This document shows positions 1 through 8,653 of a DNA stretch of 8,653 nucleotides, piece by piece; positions within the stretch are counted from its first letter, which is position 1; each line of letters begins with the position of its first letter. The position numbers were made by a program, and so were the translations under genes. The stretch comes from an uncultured Asticcacaulis sp. GTDB lineage: Bacteria > Pseudomonadota > Alphaproteobacteria > Caulobacterales > Caulobacteraceae. Location: the NCBI GenBank assembly GCA_946480525.1, contig CAMLLA010000166.1, positions 1 through 8,653 of the forward strand. The letters are read 5' to 3'. The notes below the pieces were generated by a model that saw nothing but the letters and a program-made list of their open reading frames with translations, was not told the DNA's origin and did no database searches.

Positions 1-28
1 AACCGCTTACACTTTTCGCCATATCGCT

Positions 29-3000
29 CTAGGTAAAGAACACATCGTCCTTCGTTACCGTTGCTCCGCCGTCGATCAGGGCAAGATCAACTGCAAGTCC
101 GGCCCCCGAGCCATCGGCGTCCCAATAGAGATGGCCAGTTGTGGCGTCCCAGACGAACTGGGCGGAACTGCCAACAGCTGCGCTTCCGGCGGTGAACTGC
201 GCCGTGGTCAACCTGTGTCCGGCCGCGAACCCGTAGTCCGCGCCACTGAACACCAGCCGGTCAATGGTATGGAGGAAGTCCGTGATGTGGTCGCTGCCGT
301 TGTCCGCCGCCGCGGCAAAGACAAAATCGTCCCGGCCGGTTCCACCGTTCAGACTGTCATTGCCCACTCCGCCGGCAAGAGTGTCGTTGCCGTGACCGCC
401 CGACAGCACATTGGCATTGGCATTCCCGGTGATGCGGTTGCCAAGCCCGTTGCCCGTGCCGGACACGGCCGTCCCGGCCAGGGTAAGGTGCTCGACGTCG
501 GCCCATAAGGCAAAGTCAATCGAGGCATAGACGCGGTCAGTCCCTTCATTTGCGTTTTCCAGCACGCGATCGCCGACATGATCGACATAGTAGGTATCGT
601 TACCCGCACCGCCCGACATGCGATCGTTTTCGGTGCCGCCGTCAAGCAGGTCGTCACCATCGCCACCGCTCAGTGTATCCCAGCGCTGGCCGCCGAGCAC
701 AGTGTCATTACCGGCGCCGCCGTCCAGCACGTCGCTGTCCAGGCCGCCATCAAGGCTATCGTCGCCGTCACCGCCGTTAATTGTGTCGTGGCCTGTGCCG
801 CCGGTGACAACATTGTTGCCGGCATTGCCAGTAATGGCGTTGTGGATGCCGTTGCCTGTCGCCGTCAGGTCGGCTGTCCCGCTCAGGACAAGCCCTTCGA
901 TATTGGCCACCATCGCCCAGCTGATCGACGATATGACCGTGTCGTTACCTTCACCGGCATTTTCGAGCACGCGGTCGCCAATGTGGTCGACGGAGTAAAG
1001 ATCGTTGCCCTTGCCGCCCGTCATCCGGTCGTTGTCGAGCCCTCCGTCGAGTGTGTCATTGCCGTCACCGCCAGAAAGCGTATCCCAGCGTGAACCTCCC
1101 AGCAGCGAGTCGTCATGCATGCCGCCAGTCAGGGAATCCGACCCGTCGCCGCCGTCCAGGGTATGATCGCCCAGGTCGCCGGAAAGGGTGTCGTGGCCCG
1201 CCCCGCCAATCAGCGAGTGGTCGCCGCGCCCAGCCCACACGATGTCGTTGCCGTCGCCGCCGTCGACCGTTGCCGTGTAATAGGTTTCGACAGACAGGGT
1301 GTCGTTCCCCGCACCGCCATCGGCTTCGACGCCGATACCGCTGTCGGGCAGGGCCGCGTCACCAATGGCAAGGATGCTGTCATTGCCGTCCCCGCCTGTC
1401 AGGGTCGCGTCGTCGCCCCCCACCAGGGTATCATCGCCCGCGCCGCCATTCAGGCTGTTGCCGGTCGCCAGCGCGCCGCTGATCGAGTCATCGCCGTCGC
1501 CGCCAAAGGCTGAACTGCCGGTGATGTCGACGGAAATCACGTCATCGTCTGCGCCGCCGTCAATTAGGCCTGCCCCCGATATGCTGTCGTCGCCTGGCCC
1601 GCCATTCAGCACATTGTCCGGGTGCCAGCCCGAGATCGTATCGTTGCCGTCGCCGCCTTCCGCCCTGCCCGGTCCGAACGGCGTGTTCACCGCAATAACG
1701 TCGTTTCCGCCATCGCCGTAGGCAGTGCCCGATGCTTCCAGTGTCAGGACATCGTTTCCAGCGCCACCCGACATGTCGCTCTGGCTGCGTATGGAATCGT
1801 CACCATCGCCGCCGGACAGGGTCTGCGGCCCCGGGTCGTAGCCTATCGGGCTGAGATAGGTGATCGTATCGTTGCCGATACCGCCGTCCACGACATTGCC
1901 ATGACCAAGGAACCAGATGTCGTCATCGCCGTCACCGCCCATGAGGGTGCCGACGCCTTCGATATGGTCATTACCGGCGCCACCGGACAGGCTGTCCGTT
2001 CCCCAGAAATCCATAATCGTGTCGTTGCCGTCGCCGCCTTCGACTGTGTCGCCGCCTTCGCCGCCGTCCAGGCTGTCGTCACCGCCATAGCCATAGACCG
2101 AATCGTTGGCCGCTCCGCCGGTCAGGGTGTCGGCTTCCTCGGTGCCTTCGATTATGTTGGATCCGATGGGCACGGTCTGGTCGTCAAAGACAAGCGCTTC
2201 GATGCCTGAAACCGTCGCTTCGTCGCCGTAGTAGCTGACTACGAATTCATCGAGGCCGGTTTGCGTGATGCCATAGTCCGTGCTGTCGCCGGAGAAGCGG
2301 ACCGCATCCGTGCCTTCCCCTCCGAGAATGAAGGCTCCGTTGATGGACGTTCCATCAAACGTAACCGTGTCATCGCCGTCGCCGCCACTGACCGTAACCT
2401 GGCTCGCCGAAGCCCATGCCAGGATGATGAAGCTGCCGTTCCCCTCGTCCCCCATCACGCTGCCTTCGCTTGTGATCAGGGTATCATCGCCTGCGCCACC
2501 GGACAGATTCCCCGGACCGGTCAGGATATCGTTGCCGTCACCGCCCGATATATTGAGCGTCGTGGGCACAGCGCCGAAGACGGATTGATAGGATATGGTG
2601 TCGTCGCCCGCGCCGCCATCGACGGAAACCCTTTCGCCCCACATCCATATTTCGTCGTTGTCGTCGCCGCCCAGAAGCGTCGCGTCGTCACCGCCATAGA
2701 TCGTATCGCTGCCTGCGCCACCCGAAACACTGTTCGTACCGGAATAGTCCGCCAGAGTATCGTTGCCCTCACCGCCGTCGAGCGTGTCATTGCCTTCGCC
2801 GCCGTCCAGGGTATCGTCACCGCCCAGGCCGTTGATGATCTCAGCCCCGGCGCCACCGGTCAGGCTATCCCCACCCTCGGTTCCCGTTATGATACCGGCC
2901 TCAACGAGCGCGACGGTCTGGTCGTCGAAGGCAAGATATTCAACGCCCGACAGGGTCAGGGTACTGCCGTTGTCAAATCCAATCGTAAAAGCATCGCTAC

Positions 3001-4363
3001 CGGTTCGTTCGATGCCGACACTGCCACTGTCACCCGACAGCCGGACTGTGTCGTCACCCAGGCCAGCGACGACGGTGGACTCTTCGGCGGTATAGGAACC
3101 ATTAAAGATGACCAGGTCGTCGTCCGCGCCGGCATCGATGAAATAGCCGTAACCGGAAAGGACCTCGATGACGTCATCGCCATCGCCGCCCGAAACCGTA
3201 TAGCCATCCACCTGGATGCTGTCATTGCCCGCGCCTCCGGACATATCGCCATCGCCCGACAAAGTGTCGTCGCCATCCCCACCCAGCAGCGTCACGGTGA
3301 CGAACGTATCTCTTCCGCGCTGATGGTGGATCAGGTCATTGCCCGCTCCGCCGTCAAGCACGCTGGCGACCAGATCGTGAGCATCGATCGTATCATTACC
3401 GTCGCCACCACCGGCATGGCCAGGACCGGGATTGTAATAGCCGTCCAGGCCGATGCTGTCGTCACCCGCCTCGCCCAGCAGGATATTGCTGCCTGCGTAG
3501 TCGTAGAGCTCATCGTTGCCGTCGCCGCCCAGGATGGTCGTGTCGCCAGTTCCGCCGACAAGCAGGTCATCGCCGCCCTTGCCGTCGATCCTGTCGTGGT
3601 CGTATCCCCCTATCAGGGTATCGTCGTCTTCGCTGCCTTCGTTGACGTAGAACAGGCTGCCGTCCAGTGCGATGGTGCGATCCGCGAAGACCAGGGTCTC
3701 CACGCCGGAAACGGGGATGACACGGTCGCGGAACTGGACCGCGTAGTCATCGCCGTCGTTCTGCATCGTGACTTCCGAACTGTCGATCCACAGGAACTGA
3801 AGCGTATCGTTGCCAAGTCCGCCGTAAACCGTCGCCGGCGCGGCGAACGGGTCGTTTTCCGGGACGTAAACAATGAGATCGTCATCATTGCCGGCATCGA
3901 CCGCGGCAGGCGCCTGCGAGTCGATATAGATGAGGTCGCGGCCATCGCCGCCCTCGACAGTCCCATCGCCGGCATAGATGGTATCGTTCCCGCTATCACC
4001 GAGCAGCAGGCCGCGGCCGTCGATCCGGTCGTCCCCATCGCCGCCTTCGATGGTGCCTCCCAGGCCGTGATTGTCCAACCAGTCATTGCCGGAGCCGCCA
4101 TTCAGGCTGGCGTCATAGACGACGCCACCGACAGTGATGAAATCATTGCCTTCGCCGCCCAGCAGGGTCACGCCCGTGACAGGCGTCAACAGGCTCTTGC
4201 CCTCAAGCTTGAGACGGTCGTTCCCGTCGCCGCCATCAAGCACGTCACCGCTTACGCTGCCCGTAATGCTGTCGTCCCCCTCCAGACCGAAATAGCTGTC
4301 GCCGATCGTGTCGCCATCGCTCGTCAGCGTGTCATTGCCGGTCGTTCCGTAGATGTCAGCCAT
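29..4363 (-). CDS. Giant RTX repeat protein, predicted type I secreted calcium-binding protein
   Basis: A 1444-residue acidic Gly/Asp-rich protein built from RTX nonapeptides (GGxGxDxUx), which in known families form calcium-loaded parallel beta-rolls after export. Repeats begin at about residue 8 with no signal peptide, as expected for type I substrates. Three non-RTX hinge segments (about 185-235, 438-488 and 686-735) each end in G-(V/I)-E-x-L-x-F-x-D-x-T. Residues 1086-1340 hold two copies of a module with a GDRVLEN core. From about 1345 there is no repeat: a GSDHITDF motif, then a DATTGHLYWDADGSGAG stretch, and a hydrophobic end (VFFT), typical of type I secretion regions. The ATG at 4363 follows GAGGAGGGA (4375-4367); the stop is TAG. 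I see no protease, lipase or other catalytic domain, so a surface or matrix role (adhesion, biofilm, S-layer-like) is inference. No secretion genes are in the window. Family assignment is firm; function is not. Confidence 0.95.
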   Translation of the reverse strand: MADIYGTTGNDTLTSDGDTIGDSYFGLEGDDSITGSVSGDVLDGGDGNDRLKLEGKSLLTPVTGVTLLGGEGNDFITVGGVVYDASLNGGSGNDWLDNHGLGGTIEGGDGDDRIDGRGLLLGDSGNDTIYAGDGTVEGGDGRDLIYIDSQAPAAVDAGNDDDLIVYVPENDPFAAPATVYGGLGNDTLQFLWIDSSEVTMQNDGDDYAVQFRDRVIPVSGVETLVFADRTIALDGSLFYVNEGSEDDDTLIGGYDHDRIDGKGGDDLLVGGTGDTTILGGDGNDELYDYAGSNILLGEAGDDSIGLDGYYNPGPGHAGGGDGNDTIDAHDLVASVLDGGAGNDLIHHQRGRDTFVTVTLLGGDGDDTLSGDGDMSGGAGNDSIQVDGYTVSGGDGDDVIEVLSGYGYFIDAGADDDLVIFNGSYTAEESTVVAGLGDDTVRLSGDSGSVGIERTGSDAFTIGFDNGSTLTLSGVEYLAFDDQTVALVEAGIITGTEGGDSLTGGAGAEIINGLGGDDTLDGGEGNDTLDGGEGNDTLADYSGTNSVSGGAGSDTIYGGDDATLLGGDDNDEIWMWGERVSVDGGAGDDTISYQSVFGAVPTTLNISGGDGNDILTGPGNLSGGAGDDTLITSEGSVMGDEGNGSFIILAWASASQVTVSGGDGDDTVTFDGTSINGAFILGGEGTDAVRFSGDSTDYGITQTGLDEFVVSYYGDEATVSGIEALVFDDQTVPIGSNIIEGTEEADTLTGGAANDSVYGYGGDDSLDGGEGGDTVEGGDGNDTIMDFWGTDSLSGGAGNDHIEGVGTLMGGDGDDDIWFLGHGNVVDGGIGNDTITYLSPIGYDPGPQTLSGGDGDDSIRSQSDMSGGAGNDVLTLEASGTAYGDGGNDVIAVNTPFGPGRAEGGDGNDTISGWHPDNVLNGGPGDDSISGAGLIDGGADDDVISVDITGSSAFGGDGDDSISGALATGNSLNGGAGDDTLVGGDDATLTGGDGNDSILAIGDAALPDSGIGVEADGGAGNDTLSVETYYTATVDGGDGNDIVWAGRGDHSLIGGAGHDTLSGDLGDHTLDGGDGSDSLTGGMHDDSLLGGSRWDTLSGGDGNDTLDGGLDNDRMTGGKGNDLYSVDHIGDRVLENAGEGNDTVISSISWAMVANIEGLVLSGTADLTATGNGIHNAITGNAGNNVVTGGTGHDTINGGDGDDSLDGGLDSDVLDGGAGNDTVLGGQRWDTLSGGDGDDLLDGGTENDRMSGGAGNDTYYVDHVGDRVLENANEGTDRVYASIDFALWADVEHLTLAGTAVSGTGNGLGNRITGNANANVLSGGHGNDTLAGGVGNDSLNGGTGRDDFVFAAAADNGSDHITDFLHTIDRLVFSGADYGFAAGHRLTTAQFTAGSAAVGSSAQFVWDATTGHLYWDADGSGAGLAVDLALIDGGATVTKDDVFFT
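344..703 (-). repeat. 135-residue tandem duplication, copy 2 (residues 1221-1340)
   Basis: Second copy of the C-proximal duplication: QRWDTLSGGDG, NDRM, YYVDHVGDRVLENANEG, then NGLGNRITGNANAN. It aligns with copy 1 at a constant 135-residue offset up to about residue 1299 and then has a one-residue deletion. It leads straight into the C-terminal secretion region. Confidence 0.85.
704..1108 (-). repeat. 135-residue tandem duplication, copy 1 (residues 1086-1220)
   Basis: First copy of a 405-bp direct repeat inside the RTX gene. It begins at the RWDTLSGGDG motif and includes NDRM, YSVDHIGDRVLENAGEG and the NGIHNAITGNAGNN stretch. The DNA string tatcccagcg on the plus strand at 1081-1090 recurs exactly 405 bp away at 676-685, which gives the offset directly. 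Confidence 0.85.
2159..2308 (-). other. RTX hinge segment 3 (residues 686-735)
   Basis: Third copy of the hinge: TDAVRFSGDSTDYGI, a TGLDEFVVSYYGDE stretch, then GIEALVFDDQTVPI. It lies 247 residues after copy two. No fourth copy is found at the next expected position near residue 970, where plain RTX repeats continue. Confidence 0.7.
2900..3052 (-). other. RTX hinge segment 2 (residues 438-488)
   Basis: Second copy of the hinge: DDTVRLSGDSGSVGI followed by a TGSDAFTIGFDNG stretch and GVEYLAFDDQTVAL. It lies 253 residues after the first copy and is closer in sequence to the third copy (shared RxSGDS and FDDQTV) than to the first. Confidence 0.7.
3659..3811 (-). other. RTX hinge segment 1 (residues 185-235)
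   Basis: First of three related non-RTX segments within the large RTX protein. It starts from a GNDT motif, passes through a beta-rich stretch with few glycines (QNDGDDYAVQFRDR) and ends in GVETLVFADRTIAL. It closes the first super-repeat unit. It looks like a small beta-sandwich or capping element between beta-rolls; that structural role is inference. Confidence 0.7.
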
Positions 4364-4366
4364 GGG

Positions 4367-4375
4367 TCCCTCCTC
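4367..4375 (-). promoter_or_regulatory. Ribosome binding site of the RTX gene
   Basis: Read on the minus strand this is GAGGAGGGA, three bases before the ATG at 4363 if measured from its last base, or about six from the GGAGG core. It fixes the start of the RTX protein at the residue just before the first repeats. Confidence 0.75.
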
Positions 4376-4383
4376 GAATCCGC

Positions 4384-4400
4384 CGCGCCACTCCGGCGCG
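4384..4400 (-). other. GC-rich hairpin in the RTX gene 5' leader
   Basis: CGCGCC (4384-4389), a five-base loop and GGCGCG (4395-4400) form a 6-bp all-GC stem. It lies about 20 bases upstream of the start codon and just before the ribosome binding site in the leader of the RTX gene. It might modulate mRNA folding. There is no U-tract, so it is not a terminator. Confidence 0.3.
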
Positions 4401-4451
4401 AATCCCTTGCGCCCTCAAGTATCGCTACGATTGTGGAGGATTTGTTAACCA

Positions 4452-4468
4452 TACCGGGGAAAGCGGTA
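4452..4468. promoter_or_regulatory. Candidate operator: inverted repeat TACCG-N7-CGGTA
   Basis: Perfect 5-bp arms (TACCG at 4452-4456, CGGTA at 4464-4468) flank seven bases, near the centre of the divergent intergenic region and between the weak -35 and -10 candidates of the membrane-protein gene. The dyad form would suit a dimeric regulator. The arms are short, so chance occurrence is quite possible. Confidence 0.25.
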
Positions 4469-4537
4469 ACATTTTGGTGGACAGCAGGCAGGCCAATGTC
4501 CTTGCCAAACAGTCTGCCGGATGCCACCGCTAGGCTT

Positions 4538-4545
4538 GGGGAGGA
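4538..4545 (+). promoter_or_regulatory. Ribosome binding site of the membrane-protein gene
   Basis: GGGGAGGA ends nine bases before the ATG at 4555. This is a strong Shine-Dalgarno match. It is one of the main reasons for accepting the short plus-strand gene as real although a minus-strand frame overlaps it. Confidence 0.75.
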
Positions 4546-4554
4546 TTAACCGTC

Positions 4555-4980
4555 ATGCTGACCGAAAAACGCCTGGCCGCCGCATTCGCCATTCTGTTGG
4601 GCGCCTTCGTCTGCCGCGTCGTGATGCAGGCCGTGCAGGCCGTGGGTTCCGTCCCGTGGCTGCCTGCGTTCGAACGCTGGCAGTCAGGCCTCCTGCCCTA
4701 CCCCGTCCTTTTGCTCTCCCAGGTCGCGATCATCGCCGGAAGCCTGTCGTTTCTTGCCAAGGCTGGCAAGGGCACGCTGACCCGCCGGCGGAAGTTCGGC
4801 CAGGTTCTTGCCTGTCTTGGCGGGCTTTATCTTGCCTTCGACATCTTCCGCCTCGTCCTCGGCGCCACCCTCCTCAGCGGGCACAGGTTCTTCGACAATC
4901 CCATCCCGGCCAGCTTTCACGTCGTACTGGCCCTGATGGTGCTGATCTGGGCCGGCTTTCATCTCAAACGCCAGGCCTGA
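4555..4980 (+). CDS. Small four-helix inner-membrane protein, unknown function
   Basis: A 141-residue protein with four likely membrane helices: about residues 7-29, 47-68, 82-105 and 119-136. Positive charges cluster in the loop between helices 2 and 3 (TRRRK, 76-80) and at the very end (HLKRQ), which suggests both termini and that loop are cytoplasmic. Histidines at 110, 122 and 136 and an Asp-Ile-Phe-Arg motif at 96-99 inside helix 3 are the notable polar residues. I do not recognise the family and assign no function. It starts at ATG with a strong GGGGAGGA nine bases upstream and diverges from the RTX gene across 191 bp. Its 3' end lies antisense to the tail of the enolase-superfamily gene, which stays open over 297 bp of it. 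The clear hydrophobic pattern and the ribosome binding site support it as a true gene. Confidence 0.75.
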   Translation: MLTEKRLAAAFAILLGAFVCRVVMQAVQAVGSVPWLPAFERWQSGLLPYPVLLLSQVAIIAGSLSFLAKAGKGTLTRRRKFGQVLACLGGLYLAFDIFRLVLGATLLSGHRFFDNPIPASFHVVLALMVLIWAGFHLKRQA

Positions 4981-6057
4981 AGGTTCAAGCCCAAGGCCCG
5001 GCGCGTCCGTCGGAAAATCGGCAAGCGCCAGAACACCGTGCCGATCGAACGTCAGGGACGGCGTAAAGGCGTCGCGCCGCAGCAGATGGCGGCCGTAGCC
5101 GGCTTCGAAGCCAAAAATCGGCGCGGCCTCGAGCGCCAATACCAGGCTGGCCCGCGCCAGGCAGCTGGTTTCTCCCACCTGGGCTCCGATGATCCGGCCC
5201 AGGCCCCTGGCGCGCAGCCGGCGCGTCAGATCCAGCGTACGCAGCAAACCACCCATCTTAGAGATCCGGAGGTTGACAACGAACGCACCCGGATGCGGAT
5301 CCAGCGCCAGAAAGGTTTCAAGGTCGTGTCGGTTGATCAGGCTTTCATCGAGGATGATGCTCAGCCCCGTTTCTTTTTGAATACGGATCATGGCAGCGAA
5401 GTCGCGCGCCTTGACCGGCTCCTCGACCGCCCAGACCCTGTCCGTCAGCGGCATCAGACCCGCGACGGCGGACTCCGCGTCCGGCCACAGATTGTTGCCG
5501 TCCAGCCGGACCGATGCGAAGCGCGACAACAGCTTCACACGTCTGAGATTACGCGCGGCATCCCCGGATAATTTGAGTTTGACCGCCGTCATGCCGGCGG
5601 TCCAGAAGCGCCAGGCCTGCAAATGAAAGGTCAATGGATTGTCGCTGCCGGACACCGCCGTGACCGCCTGCGGCCGGCTCAGCCCCTTCAGCCCCAGGAA
5701 GGCCTCGACCGACACGCCGTCCCGCCGCGCCAGATAGTCCAGCATGGCCAGTTCAAACGCGCAGAAGGCGCTGGGGTTGCGATCGATTTCGGCTTCGTGG
5801 GTTTCGACCAGGCCACGCAGGTCGTCAAGGGTACGCACCCGTCGGCTCCACGGCCCGATGCGGTCCTTAAGCCAGGCCACGGCGCTTTCCACCGTCTCAC
5901 CGGTCACATAGTCGCGCGGGCAGCCTTCGCCGTAACCGCACCGCCCGTCGCCATCACGCACCCGAACGATAACCGCTGCCGACGTTTTGCGCACCGCACT
6001 GGCGTGAGCGAAGGCCGCCCGGAAGGGAATTTCAACCGGGATAAGGTCTGCGTCCAT
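4684..6057 (-). CDS. Enolase-superfamily enzyme, MLE subgroup (epimerase/racemase-like)
   Basis: The frame gives 457 residues, against roughly 320-370 usual for the family. An N-terminal capping region (about 1-125) precedes a TIM-like barrel with a full MLE-subgroup active site: KxK at 160/162, metal ligands D186 (RLDGNN), E212 (VEEP) and D237 (ILDES), catalytic lysine K267 (RISKMGG) and E296 in GAQVGETS. These enzymes take an alpha-proton from a carboxylate with Mg2+ bound; relatives include dipeptide epimerases, o-succinylbenzoate synthase and N-acylamino acid racemase. The DxD motif that binds the dipeptide amino group in Ala-Glu epimerases is not seen after E296, so that specificity is doubtful. 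The family-like end is PGLGLE near residue 358. The following ~97 residues are hydrophilic, low in complexity and antisense to a membrane-protein gene, so they may be spurious. The ATG at 6057 is chosen because it follows the GH3 stop by one base and has GAGG six bases upstream. Confidence 0.85.
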   Translation of the reverse strand: MDADLIPVEIPFRAAFAHASAVRKTSAAVIVRVRDGDGRCGYGEGCPRDYVTGETVESAVAWLKDRIGPWSRRVRTLDDLRGLVETHEAEIDRNPSAFCAFELAMLDYLARRDGVSVEAFLGLKGLSRPQAVTAVSGSDNPLTFHLQAWRFWTAGMTAVKLKLSGDAARNLRRVKLLSRFASVRLDGNNLWPDAESAVAGLMPLTDRVWAVEEPVKARDFAAMIRIQKETGLSIILDESLINRHDLETFLALDPHPGAFVVNLRISKMGGLLRTLDLTRRLRARGLGRIIGAQVGETSCLARASLVLALEAAPIFGFEAGYGRHLLRRDAFTPSLTFDRHGVLALADFPTDAPGLGLEPSGLAFEMKAGPDQHHQGQYDVKAGRDGIVEEPVPAEEGGAEDEAEDVEGKIKPAKTGKNLAELPPAGQRALASLGKKRQASGDDRDLGEQKDGVGQEA

Positions 6058-6058
6058 G

Positions 6059-7726
6059 TCAGGCCTCGACAAACGGAGCGAAGTCGAACGGACATTCGCG
6101 GCGGTACTGTAGCGTAAGAACCTTAAACTGCGCTTCTCGTTGACCACGCGCAATATGGAAATCACGGTAATTGTGCGCTGCGGCGATATTAAGACGATAA
6201 ACGCTCAGGGGCTTCAGCCGGCCGGTTTCGCGCTTGGCGGCGTATTCGATATTCAGGTCGCGGAGAATGTGGTCGAGACGACGGCCGAGTTCGACTGTGC
6301 TTGCGGGCGGGCCGCTTTCATCCGGGTGTATATGGATGTAGGCCGAATATTGCGCGGACTCCTCATCGGCGAGCACGACGTAGAAGCGGATTTCGCCGGC
6401 GAGGTCCGCGCCTAATCGCGACATGGCTTCGTTGACCTGCTGCTCGCTCAGCTTTTCTCCGGTGATGCTGGTAAAGCCCCTGCCCTTCTGCTTGAAGCTC
6501 AGCGAATGGGTGCGGCCGATCATGGGCCCGGCGCGCAGGATATCGTTCATGACGTAGCGATAGAGGCCGTTCAGCGTGGTGACGATCACCTGATAGTCCC
6601 GGCCTTCGACAAGTTCGTCAACGCGCAGGGTATCACGTCGCCCTTCGTCCCAGTCGTCCGCCGGGATGAATTCAAAGAAGACATCCTCCAGCAGAGGCGC
6701 TGCCAGGTTGCGGTCGGCGTCCAATACCGCCGTTCCGCGCAGTTCACTGGCGACATAGCCGGCTTCGATAAGCCGCGTATCGGCATGGATGGCGCGACGC
6801 ACGGCCTGGGCCGCGATGGTGCAACTGCCGCCGGTCCAGGTGACAACGGCCTTCAGGTTCGGCCACAGGTCGTGGATCGTCGTCCGGTCGATGGCCGACA
6901 GGCGATCGAGATGCGCGGCACGCTCGGGATCGGCGGAAATGGCCGCCTTGACCGCGCGAAACGTATCCGATGGCAAGAGCTCTATGCCGTCGATATGACC
7001 GCGCCGGACGTCTTCGATCAAGCGGAGCCAGTTTTGCTGAAAATAATCGCGCAGGCGAAGGAAGGTCGACGGATTGGCGGTGGAGACTGCCGTCAGGTCC
7101 TCGTGCTTGAGCGCCAGATGGGCGACAATGGCGTATTTCAGACCGGCGTCCTCGATCGAGAAGACCTCGGCGGGGACGACGTATTTGCGACGGATAGGCT
7201 TTGGCAGGGTCTCATAAATCAGGCCGGTAACCGAGCCGATGGGCGTGCCGTCGTCGAGGACATCCTCACGCGTGGCGCCGCTGAGAAGCAGAATTTTGCC
7301 GGAATAGAGGTCGCAACTGCGCAGGAAGGCATAGGCCATGGCGGCCTGGACCTGGGTAACGCGCTTGAGCGCGGCCGGCGTAACGGGGATCAGTTTGGGC
7401 GCCGACAATGTGCCGCTGGTCCGGGCGTACATCAGCGGCTTTTCGCTGACTATGGCGTGCTCTCCCGCGATCTGGCGGTCGATATAGGGACGCAGGTCCT
7501 CATAGGTCGCCAACGGCACGCGCGCACGGAAGTCGTCGACGGTGCGGATGCCGGCAAACCCGTGATCGGCCGCAAAGGCGGTATTGCGGTTGGTCTCCAA
7601 TATCCGTTTCAACGCGTGCACCTGCGCCGCTTCCGGTGATTGCGTCGCCCTCAGCAAGGCCCGGTATGCCCTGCCACCGCGAAAAGACAGGCCGATCCTG
7701 AACAGGGCGTCCGATATCCAGTCCAT
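6059..7726 (-). CDS. GH3-family acyl-acid amido synthetase (ANL-like adenylating enzyme)
   Basis: A 555-residue cytosolic protein of the GH3 family, best known from plant enzymes such as JAR1 that adenylate a carboxylic acid with ATP and transfer the acyl group to an amino acid. The three nucleotide-binding motifs are present in order: a phosphate loop at 101-114 (ARTSGTLSAPKLIP, with T103, S104, G105, K111), the YxxSE motif at 324-328 (YVASE), and motif 3 at 388-396 (LYRYVMNDI; Y389, R390, Y391, D395). A C-terminal domain follows the FTSITGEKLSE stretch (418-428), where the lid lysine and hinge of ANL enzymes would lie. Plant motif 3 usually reads YRYRxGD, so the Val-Met-Asn here is a variant. 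Length is close to plant GH3 enzymes. The ATG shares its A with the TGA of the upstream hydroxylase gene (TGATG), with GAGG 11 bases upstream, which indicates translational coupling. The acyl and amino substrates cannot be read from sequence. Confidence 0.92.
   Translation of the reverse strand: MDWISDALFRIGLSFRGGRAYRALLRATQSPEAAQVHALKRILETNRNTAFAADHGFAGIRTVDDFRARVPLATYEDLRPYIDRQIAGEHAIVSEKPLMYARTSGTLSAPKLIPVTPAALKRVTQVQAAMAYAFLRSCDLYSGKILLLSGATREDVLDDGTPIGSVTGLIYETLPKPIRRKYVVPAEVFSIEDAGLKYAIVAHLALKHEDLTAVSTANPSTFLRLRDYFQQNWLRLIEDVRRGHIDGIELLPSDTFRAVKAAISADPERAAHLDRLSAIDRTTIHDLWPNLKAVVTWTGGSCTIAAQAVRRAIHADTRLIEAGYVASELRGTAVLDADRNLAAPLLEDVFFEFIPADDWDEGRRDTLRVDELVEGRDYQVIVTTLNGLYRYVMNDILRAGPMIGRTHSLSFKQKGRGFTSITGEKLSEQQVNEAMSRLGADLAGEIRFYVVLADEESAQYSAYIHIHPDESGPPASTVELGRRLDHILRDLNIEYAAKRETGRLKPLSVYRLNIAAAHNYRDFHIARGQREAQFKVLTLQYRRECPFDFAPFVEA
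6064..6067 (-). promoter_or_regulatory. Ribosome binding site deciding the MLE-type gene start
   Basis: Minus-strand GAGG lies six bases before the ATG at 6057, inside the last codons of the GH3 gene. The same frame is open further upstream, to an ATG at 6165, but that would overlap GH3 by about 100 bases. The coupled start at 6057 also fits the family's N-terminus. Confidence 0.6.
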
Positions 7727-8595
7727 CAGGGTTTACGCCTCAGCGGCGCCCACAGCTGTGCCCAGAAACCCTGCGGATAGGCGTAGCCGAGGCCCAATCG
7801 TCCTACAGCCTGATCCTTGGGTCGGTGGTAGGTGCCGAAGATCAGGTCCCAGACGATGAAGGTGTGGGCGAAATTGTGCGCCGACTCCTTCCAGTCCTCG
7901 TCGTGGTGCCAGCGATGCACCTCCGGACCGCTGAGGACATAGTTGAAGACACCGAGGCGCAGGTCGATATTGGCATGCTGCAACAGGCCGCTGGTCGCAT
8001 AGACGACGAAATAGAGCGCCAGGACGTCGGGGCCGATACCGAGCACCAGAAAAAGTAGCGTGTCGAGGACGTATTGCAGCGCCTTGTCGCCCGGATGGAA
8101 GCGAAAGACGTTGATAGCGTACAGTTTTGAAGGTGCATGATGGACCTCGTGCAGCCGCCACAGCCACGGCACGGTGTGCGACCAGCGATGCAGCCAATAG
8201 CGCAGGAAATCGCCGATCCCGATTTTCAGCAGGATTTGCGCCCATATCGGCCAGGCCTGCGGCCAGAGATCGAAACTGAGGCCCGCCTTTTGCACGATAT
8301 TCAGCAGGGCATAAGCGCTGAGCCAGCCCAGGCCCAAAGGCAGGAGGACCTGCACAAAGATCATGAAAATCAGGTCGGTTATGGTGTCGCGCGCCTCGGG
8401 CTTCCAATCCGAACGATGAGGGATCAGCCATTCGAACAGGCTGATCAGAAGGAAAGCCGCGATCACGGCGGCATAGGGCGCCACACCCAAGGGGACACCG
8501 GCGGCCCGCAAGGCGTAGTATGTCGCGATTCCCACGGCCAGGCAGACGGGATAGGCGATAATTTTCAACAGATATATCAGCGATCCCCGGCGCAC
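7726..8595 (-). CDS. Fatty acid hydroxylase / sterol desaturase family membrane protein
   Basis: A 289-residue integral membrane protein with likely helices near residues 8-30, 38-58, 71-100, 115-133 and 175-205. The family's eight-histidine di-iron signature is complete: HRWSH (H136, H140), HEVHH (H149, H152, H153) and HRWHH (H227, H230, H231). Extra histidines lie at 167, 207, 240 and 244. Such enzymes use O2 and electrons from a redox partner to hydroxylate or desaturate lipid chains, with the iron site on the cytoplasmic side. The substrate is unknown. The start is GTG at 8595: no ATG exists in this frame back to an in-frame stop at 8643-8641, and GGGGGA lies three bases upstream, a short spacing. 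An ATG at 8599 belongs to another frame that lacks the His boxes. The gene begins 13 bases after the stop of a partial upstream gene and overlaps GH3 by one base, so it is the second visible member of the operon. Confidence 0.92.
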   Translation of the reverse strand: MRRGSLIYLLKIIAYPVCLAVGIATYYALRAAGVPLGVAPYAAVIAAFLLISLFEWLIPHRSDWKPEARDTITDLIFMIFVQVLLPLGLGWLSAYALLNIVQKAGLSFDLWPQAWPIWAQILLKIGIGDFLRYWLHRWSHTVPWLWRLHEVHHAPSKLYAINVFRFHPGDKALQYVLDTLLFLVLGIGPDVLALYFVVYATSGLLQHANIDLRLGVFNYVLSGPEVHRWHHDEDWKESAHNFAHTFIVWDLIFGTYHRPKDQAVGRLGLGYAYPQGFWAQLWAPLRRKP

Positions 8596-8608
8596 GCATC
8601 CCCCGCAG

Positions 8609-8653
8609 TCACTTGAGCATATCGTGCTTGCCGGTTTCGATCATCTGTTGTTT
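8609..8653 (-). CDS. 3' end of an upstream operon gene (partial)
   Basis: The last 14 codons and the TGA stop of a frame entering from the right edge, reading KQQMIETGKHDMLK. The stop lies 13 bases before the GTG of the hydroxylase gene, a normal intra-operon distance. The fragment is too short to identify. It is proposed because the spacing suits an operon and the residues look like an ordinary soluble protein end, but it could be a chance open frame. Confidence 0.45.
   Translation of the reverse strand, partial: KQQMIETGKHDMLK

Follow-up and report, generated by a model that had tools for sequence, protein, structure and literature searches.

A recurrent bacterial gene module of a GH3-type synthetase, an OlsE-like hydroxylase, an MLE-subgroup protein and a small membrane protein

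We analyzed an 8,653-nucleotide stretch of DNA from an uncultured Asticcacaulis sp. (contig CAMLLA010000166.1, positions 1–8,653; the whole stretch is called the window below). The window contains a single instance of a conserved module with a sporadic distribution, made up of a small membrane protein, for which we use the name SMP, an OlsE-like hydroxylase, a GH3-type synthetase and a protein of the muconate-lactonizing enzyme (MLE) subgroup of the enolase superfamily. The four genes are arranged as follows:

7726–8595, minus strand: OlsE-like di-iron membrane hydroxylase of the FA_hydroxylase/sterol desaturase superfamily (289 amino acids, GTG start; PF04116)
6059–7726, minus strand: GH3-type ATP-dependent acyl-amino acid amide synthetase (555 amino acids; PF03321, GH3_M and GH3_C)
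4684–6057, minus strand: MLE-subgroup enolase-superfamily protein (open reading frame of 457 amino acids; PF13378, enolase C-terminal domain)
4555–4980, plus strand: SMP, small hydrophobic four-helix membrane protein (141 amino acids; assigned by homology)

The first-pass annotation of this DNA had described three complete genes on one strand with TGATG and TGA-C-ATG junctions, and we confirm three intact minus-strand open reading frames with this layout. The hydroxylase stop codon (7728–7726) and the GH3 start codon (ATG, 7726–7724) have one base in common, and a single base separates the GH3 stop codon (6061–6059) from the ATG of the MLE gene (6057–6055). The SMP gene is convergent with this operon and is overlapped between 4684 and 4980 by the antisense tail of the MLE frame, the enzyme proper ending near position 4950. 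Gene calling in the window kept the overlapping MLE frame over the SMP gene, for whose reality homology argues.

Relatives of the window GH3 were located by an alignment-based profile scan that covered a single genome for each GTDB species, and our linkage counts refer to the best 80 of 194 confirmed GH3 relatives; a scan of genome contigs with the window GH3 as a single sequence gave no matches. The MLE gene is the next same-strand gene after GH3 in all 80 loci, lying within 120 bases in 79 of them and 1.6 kb away in L044, with a median of 17.5 bases between the two domains. The order hydroxylase-GH3-MLE is found in 79/80 loci, the one departure (L042) being a locus that begins at the end of a contig. 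The linkage of GH3 and MLE is far beyond chance, and the conserved adjacency that the first-pass annotation had named as its own check is strongly borne out.

According to the titles given by their submitters, the 80 loci span 13 phyla: 46 belong to Pseudomonadota, 12 to Actinomycetota, five to Chloroflexota, three to Acidobacteriota, two each to Bacteroidota, Nitrospinota and Poribacteria, and one each to six more phyla, with two loci carrying no group name. Pairwise identities of the module proteins are correlated (r = 0.92 for GH3 and MLE, 0.88 for GH3 and hydroxylase, and 0.82 for GH3 and SMP), common descent of the carriers contributing to these values. One gammaproteobacterial genome (G004, the source of L005) has two complete four-gene modules (L166 and L167), one of them with a Pot-type ABC transporter and a solute-binding protein between SMP and hydroxylase and the other without. 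A GH3 tree of a quick kind, with long branches, requires 14 label changes compared with a least possible number of 12, which alone is no proof of transfer.

Control genomes show the module to be rare and patchy, with GH3 and MLE together in every module-type locus seen; the rarity is approximate, as few candidates were scored per genome in these searches. A GH3 match occurs in 34 of 289 alphaproteobacterial genomes, and in four of these the protein is of the module type (664–876 bits, compared with 95 bits for the best other match); two of the four are source genomes of loci already in our set. In the phylum of the Bacteroidetes locus, 50 of 148 genomes have a GH3 match, the only module-type protein being that of the query genome (663 versus 121 bits), and the query genome is likewise the only one with a module-type GH3 (E ≤ 1e-80) among 274 gammaproteobacterial and 198 acidimicrobial genomes. 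Short flanks of 55 non-module GH3 loci from alphaproteobacteria and Bacteroidota contain neither MLE, hydroxylase nor SMP (0/55), whereas MLE is present in 5/5 module-type GH3 loci in the same comparison, and 20 of the 55 re-read with 11–15 kb again contain no partner (0/20). Conversely, GH3 is found in the short flank of none of 28 ordinary MLE relatives; in these flanks the missing hydroxylase and SMP are uninformative, because two module-type loci showed neither there. The closest named protein matches of the window come from Asticcacaulis sp. MM231 (79% identity for GH3, 65% for MLE), and the MLE and GH3 genes of Brevundimonas sp. LM2 have consecutive tags (BZG35_14195 and BZG35_14200). 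Two named isolates carrying at least GH3 and MLE are thus at hand.

The window GH3 scores above the Pfam gathering cut-offs for all three of its domains (PF03321, 204.5 bits; GH3_M, 56.5 bits; GH3_C, 37.6 bits; gathering 23.6). Residues S103-G104-T105...K110, Y323..S326-E327, G386-L387..R389-Y390..D394 and K424 are invariant in 27/27 aligned close relatives, and we take K424, the C-domain lysine, to be catalytic as in plant GH3s. The three nucleotide-binding motifs (TSGT..K, Y..SE and GL.RY..ND) are present as defined in the OlsH paper (PMC12493201). The ten PDB matches of the window GH3 are without exception plant enzymes, amido synthetases acting on hormones or benzoates, and its residues 26–536 match GH3.8 (7dk8) with an E value of 6.7e-24. 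Its only NCBIfam match is OlsH (NF052613), at 121.5 bits far below the equivalog cut-off of 620, and the fusion protein of L072 also stays under this cut-off (105.4 bits). With the adenylation motifs intact and OlsH as the best named bacterial family, the proposed formation of acyl-amino acids by this protein is plausible, although the score falls far short of the cut-off. A plasmid search with the window GH3 returned 13 records, all below 60% identity (best 29.9%). One of these proteins (L168, H1; 30% identical), encoded on a plasmid of Streptomyces sp. SGAir0924, is of the non-module type and lies near a type I polyketide synthase, a P450 and an F420-dependent oxidoreductase, where it perhaps provides an amide-forming step in a natural product cluster.

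The hydroxylase matches PF04116 with 94.9 bits (cut-off 31), and its histidine clusters (H136/H140, H149/H152/H153 and H227/H230/H231) are invariant in 30/30 aligned module members. Again there is a single NCBIfam match, to OlsE (NF052566, 168.3 bits), under the equivalog cut-off of 475; module members from L005 and L072 reach 176.5 and 182.1 bits, respectively, and are under it as well. OlsE is a hydroxylase of the ornithine head group (PMC3972451). The module protein thus resembles a head-group hydroxylase, though below cut-off, rather than a chain oxidase, which speaks against the oxidation of lipid chains that had been ascribed to it.

The MLE-subgroup protein has the expected fold, KxK motif and D/E/D metal ligands, and R48, E118 and E318 are further invariant residues. 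At the end of strand beta-6, the usual lysine is replaced by Arg264 in 77/77 module proteins with this column filled (81 rows). Ordinary relatives have Lys at this position in 27/28 cases and Arg in none, and Lys is found in 5/5 aligned PDB relatives. These residue counts omit gap rows (1 to 4 of 81), and the ordinary set drops one all-gap row, the second piece of L196. The Arg264 column aligns with Lys268 of the Ala-Glu epimerase (1jpm); we take Lys162 and Lys268 to be the catalytic residues, the latter presumably acting as second base. Because no module member with a residue in this column retains the beta-6 lysine, all of them having Arg, a simple two-base racemase is disfavored, and the role of N-acylamino acid racemase suggested for this protein in the first-pass annotation is weakened accordingly. 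Arginine can serve as a base in some other enzymes. The module proteins are also set apart by score (425–429 bits for two members versus 113 bits for the best ordinary relative), and the window protein remains under the equivalog cut-offs of the racemase and epimerase families DgcA (62 versus 400 bits), PRK15129 (36.7 versus 343) and NF041118 (Thermotoga-type epimerase, 31.8 versus 500), as well as that of the muconate/chloromuconate cycloisomerase family TIGR02534 (72.1 versus 334.95). The last 85–90 codons of the frame lie past residue ∼370, the usual end of most relatives. In one 88%-identical relative (P0122) this tail is closely similar and in another protein (P0123) it is different, and judged from these sequences the long convergent overlap of the MLE and SMP genes may be kept in this lineage. 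One ordinary MLE relative from an alphaproteobacterial genome (L180) has Asp at beta-6 (VVLLDPHEAGG), another departure from the two-lysine pattern.

SMP (∼150 amino acids) emerged from clustering of neighboring frames as a further family that recurs across phyla. It is found near the module in 57/80 loci: within 300 bases upstream in 27, within 300 bases downstream on the same strand in 22, downstream on the opposite strand in one, which is the arrangement of the window, and further upstream in seven, where it stands behind Pot-type genes in five cases and is fused to a hydrolase in two. The window SMP matches no Pfam or NCBIfam family, and its counterparts in L056, L007 and L070 match no Pfam family either. 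The protein is hydrophobic and is predicted by AlphaFold2 to form a four-helix bundle (predicted local distance difference test score 94.2). A fold search against the PDB gave no match at E ≤ 0.001, which does not show that the fold is new.

Several loci join module parts in one polypeptide. Hydroxylase and GH3 share an open frame in 10/80 loci, and the frame of L072 includes SMP, too; L012 and L051 have a fusion of SMP and hydroxylase, and in L043, L055 and L067 SMP is fused to an alpha/beta-hydrolase of the CocE/S15 type. Such gene fusions usually mean contact or consecutive reactions, and those seen here suggest that the parts of the module touch or act one after the other. A CocE-type hydrolase is located near the module in 10/80 loci (CocE/S15 domains were checked in L055, L067 and L007). 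In seven loci from gammaproteobacteria the hydroxylase is immediately preceded by a Pot-type ABC transporter, with SMP ahead of the transporter in five of the seven (families checked in L006). Pot-type systems import polyamines, and therefore an amine-type substrate or acceptor is possible. The first-pass set of three genes is real and incomplete, having missed SMP and the accessory genes.

The extra neighbors that recur are all bound to lineages, and only the Pot-type transporter and the CocE-type hydrolases are taken as functionally tied to the module. A Rieske oxygenase (PF00355 and LigXa_C, checked in L020) follows MLE on the same strand in the closely related Chloroflexota loci L013, L020 and L027, and in L069 a member of this cluster lies at that place on the opposite strand. 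UbiE-like methyltransferases occur in four loci, directly after MLE in two. The one in L039 exceeds the MenG/UbiE subfamily cut-off (246 versus 158 bits), so that quinone synthesis is its likelier role, and that of L036 reaches none of the cut-offs shown. Two acidimicrobial loci (L059 and L075) have a different ABC transporter upstream, the ATPase of L059 being nearest to the molybdate type. Other neighbors, named by eye, are ribosomal-protein genes in seven acidimicrobial loci and iron-sulfur assembly genes in one gammaproteobacterial clade. Clustering of the neighbors revealed no family beyond the four module families that recurs across phyla, and most single neighbors are without annotation.

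We propose that the module encodes a GH3-dependent pathway for a hydroxylated N-acyl amino-acid lipid at the membrane, finished by a one-lysine lyase or isomerase, a reading to which we give about an even chance. GH3, located at the inner membrane, would adenylate a free fatty acid or a similar acyl acid and join the activated acyl group to the amine of an amino acid, yielding an N-acyl amino acid. The hydroxylase, kept nearby by SMP or by direct fusion, would then hydroxylate this compound, by analogy to OlsE on its head group. The MLE-subgroup enzyme may then use Lys162 to abstract the alpha-proton of the carboxylate, Arg264 assisting electrostatically or as a proton donor, and this step would drive an elimination, a cyclization or another one-base isomerization, not an ordinary two-lysine racemization. 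The pathway would end in an amino lipid free of phosphorus, or in a lipid signal, of undescribed type. PF13444, which we take to represent OlsB/OlsF-type acyltransferases, is matched in 10 of the 34 carrier genomes searched (34 of the 80 locus genomes, metagenome-assembled genomes being incomplete) and has no match in the other 24, and the module therefore seemingly does not depend on the classical ornithine-lipid route. The overall interpretation of the first-pass annotation is in part supported by these results: adjacency holds and acyl-amino acid formation is plausible, while chain oxidation and a simple racemase are disfavored.

A number of observations weigh against the pathway that we propose. 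The two-lysine argument is drawn from homology. Of the 23 carrier genomes without SMP near the module, 21 have no SMP and two have it elsewhere (one with an internal stop); its absence from 21/23 such genomes means that it is not essential everywhere. The scores of GH3 and hydroxylase are far under the OlsH and OlsE cut-offs given above, and another pair of acyl acid and amine is therefore possible. The module has no O-acyltransferase as a constant part, and the CocE-type hydrolase is confined to 10/80 loci. In addition, the scan patterns were built from the alignment of the module clade itself, so that the scan favors this clade, and 79/80 loci come from metagenome-assembled genomes by title (the exception is L047).

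The metagenomic origin of most loci is also all that could be said for chance neighborhood or an assembly artefact, an explanation otherwise without anything of weight behind it and refuted by the 80/80 adjacency over 13 phyla, the fusions, the two copies in one genome and the control counts of 0/55 and 0/20. A more serious alternative keeps the MLE protein as an N-acyl amino acid racemase or epimerase, with Arg264 as second acid/base, and has the module produce a D-configured N-acyl amino acid lipid. The presence of Arg at beta-6 in 77/77 module members and 0/28 ordinary relatives and the failure to reach any of the racemase/epimerase equivalog cut-offs that came up (DgcA, PRK15129 and NF041118) render it unlikely.

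The module might instead directly yield a variant of ornithine lipids, with GH3 as functional OlsH, the hydroxylase as functional OlsE and the MLE protein tuning the ornithine head group. OlsH and OlsE are indeed the best NCBIfam names for the two proteins, and the 24/34 module genomes lacking a PF13444 match would profit from another way of making such lipids. We nevertheless find this variant decidedly improbable, as the scores amount to ∼1/5 and ∼1/3 of the curated cut-offs, no OlsG-type gene is constant (the hydrolase of 10 loci is of the CocE/S15 type in the three checked) and, according to the OlsH paper (PMC12493201), the amino acid used may be a different one in homologues from beyond the planctomycetes. 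Ranking below it, and in our view quite doubtful, is the making or modification of a soluble signal or detoxified acid, much as plant GH3s conjugate hormones, with hydroxylase and SMP acting on a small hydrophobic acid. The plant hormone and benzoate amido synthetases among the PDB matches (all ten) agree with this option, and a rare and patchy module is what one would expect of an accessory function; the OlsE-like nature of the hydroxylase and the hydrophobic SMP with its predicted four-helix bundle argue against it, as does the set of neighbors, which holds no further family recurring across phyla, although most single neighbors are without annotation.

Our proposal of a membrane-bound N-acyl amino-acid lipid pathway can be taken further, to a self-contained route for a new class of bacterial amino lipids in which hydroxylation of the head group is followed by its dehydration or cyclization through the one-lysine (Arg264) enzyme, the unit having been exchanged between distant phyla. 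We consider this extension tentative and clearly less probable than not. To our knowledge, there is no precedent for such a dehydration or cyclization in GH3 pathways or in the MLE subgroup.

The closest known system is the pathway of Singulisphaera acidiphila, where an OlsH-OlsG-OlsI operon provides GH3-dependent ornithine lipid synthesis and OlsH, published in 2025, converts free fatty acid to N-acyl ornithine with ATP and Mg2+ (PMC12493201). The statement that GH3 proteins have been studied mostly in plants is incomplete since that report. Both systems place a bacterial GH3 with the same three nucleotide-binding motifs in an operon with lipid-modifying enzymes, and an alpha/beta-hydrolase, which may or may not be kin to OlsI, is also near 10/80 module copies, but GH3 is accompanied in the module by an OlsE-like hydroxylase, an MLE-subgroup enzyme and SMP, and is distant from OlsH by score. 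OlsE itself shares PF04116 and the conserved histidine clusters with the module hydroxylase (168–182 bits in three members), which differs in standing beside GH3 in 79/80 loci and in one frame with it in 10. Plant GH3s such as JAR1 and GH3.8 have the same domain layout and adenylation motifs, whereas the module GH3 represents a bacterial clade with hydroxylase and MLE partners. From the known members of the MLE subgroup (dipeptide epimerases, N-succinyl-Arg/Lys racemase and chloromuconate cycloisomerase), the module proteins are distinguished by Arg at beta-6 throughout and by the wide score gap.

We found no description of the gene set in the open-licence PMC literature, where searches for bacterial GH3s and for the gene set gave only the OlsH paper. 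A term search of the text of that paper (PMC12493201) found neither 'racemase' nor 'enolase', and one of the text of a 2024 aminolipid review (PMC11631085) neither 'GH3' nor 'racemase'. OlsH being the only bacterial GH3 with demonstrated function found in these searches, the module offers a specific, testable context, with three partners that are constant and a fourth that is frequent, fusions that hint at which parts touch, and a diagnostic active-site change. It marks a clade of the enolase superfamily whose reaction cannot simply be inferred from relatives, and it gives functional context to SMP, a family without a Pfam name.

The window contains three further features:

8609–8653, minus strand: end of a candidate upstream frame, KQQMIETGKHDMLK followed by the stop codon (translation; runs off the window edge)
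29–4363, minus strand: RTX protein adjoining the module (1444 amino acids; calcium-binding nonapeptide repeats)
2261–4549, plus strand: open frame antisense to the RTX gene (762 amino acids)

Scans for promoters and terminators gave no usable signal. The operon may begin upstream of the window, because the minus-strand frame that enters from its edge stops at 8609, 13 bases ahead of the hydroxylase GTG. The RTX protein has no Pfam domain beyond the nonapeptide repeats, and its closest NCBIfam family, under cut-off, is of the SMc04171 type. The 762-residue plus-strand frame has the look of a shadow frame of the RTX gene, which is repetitive and GC-rich.

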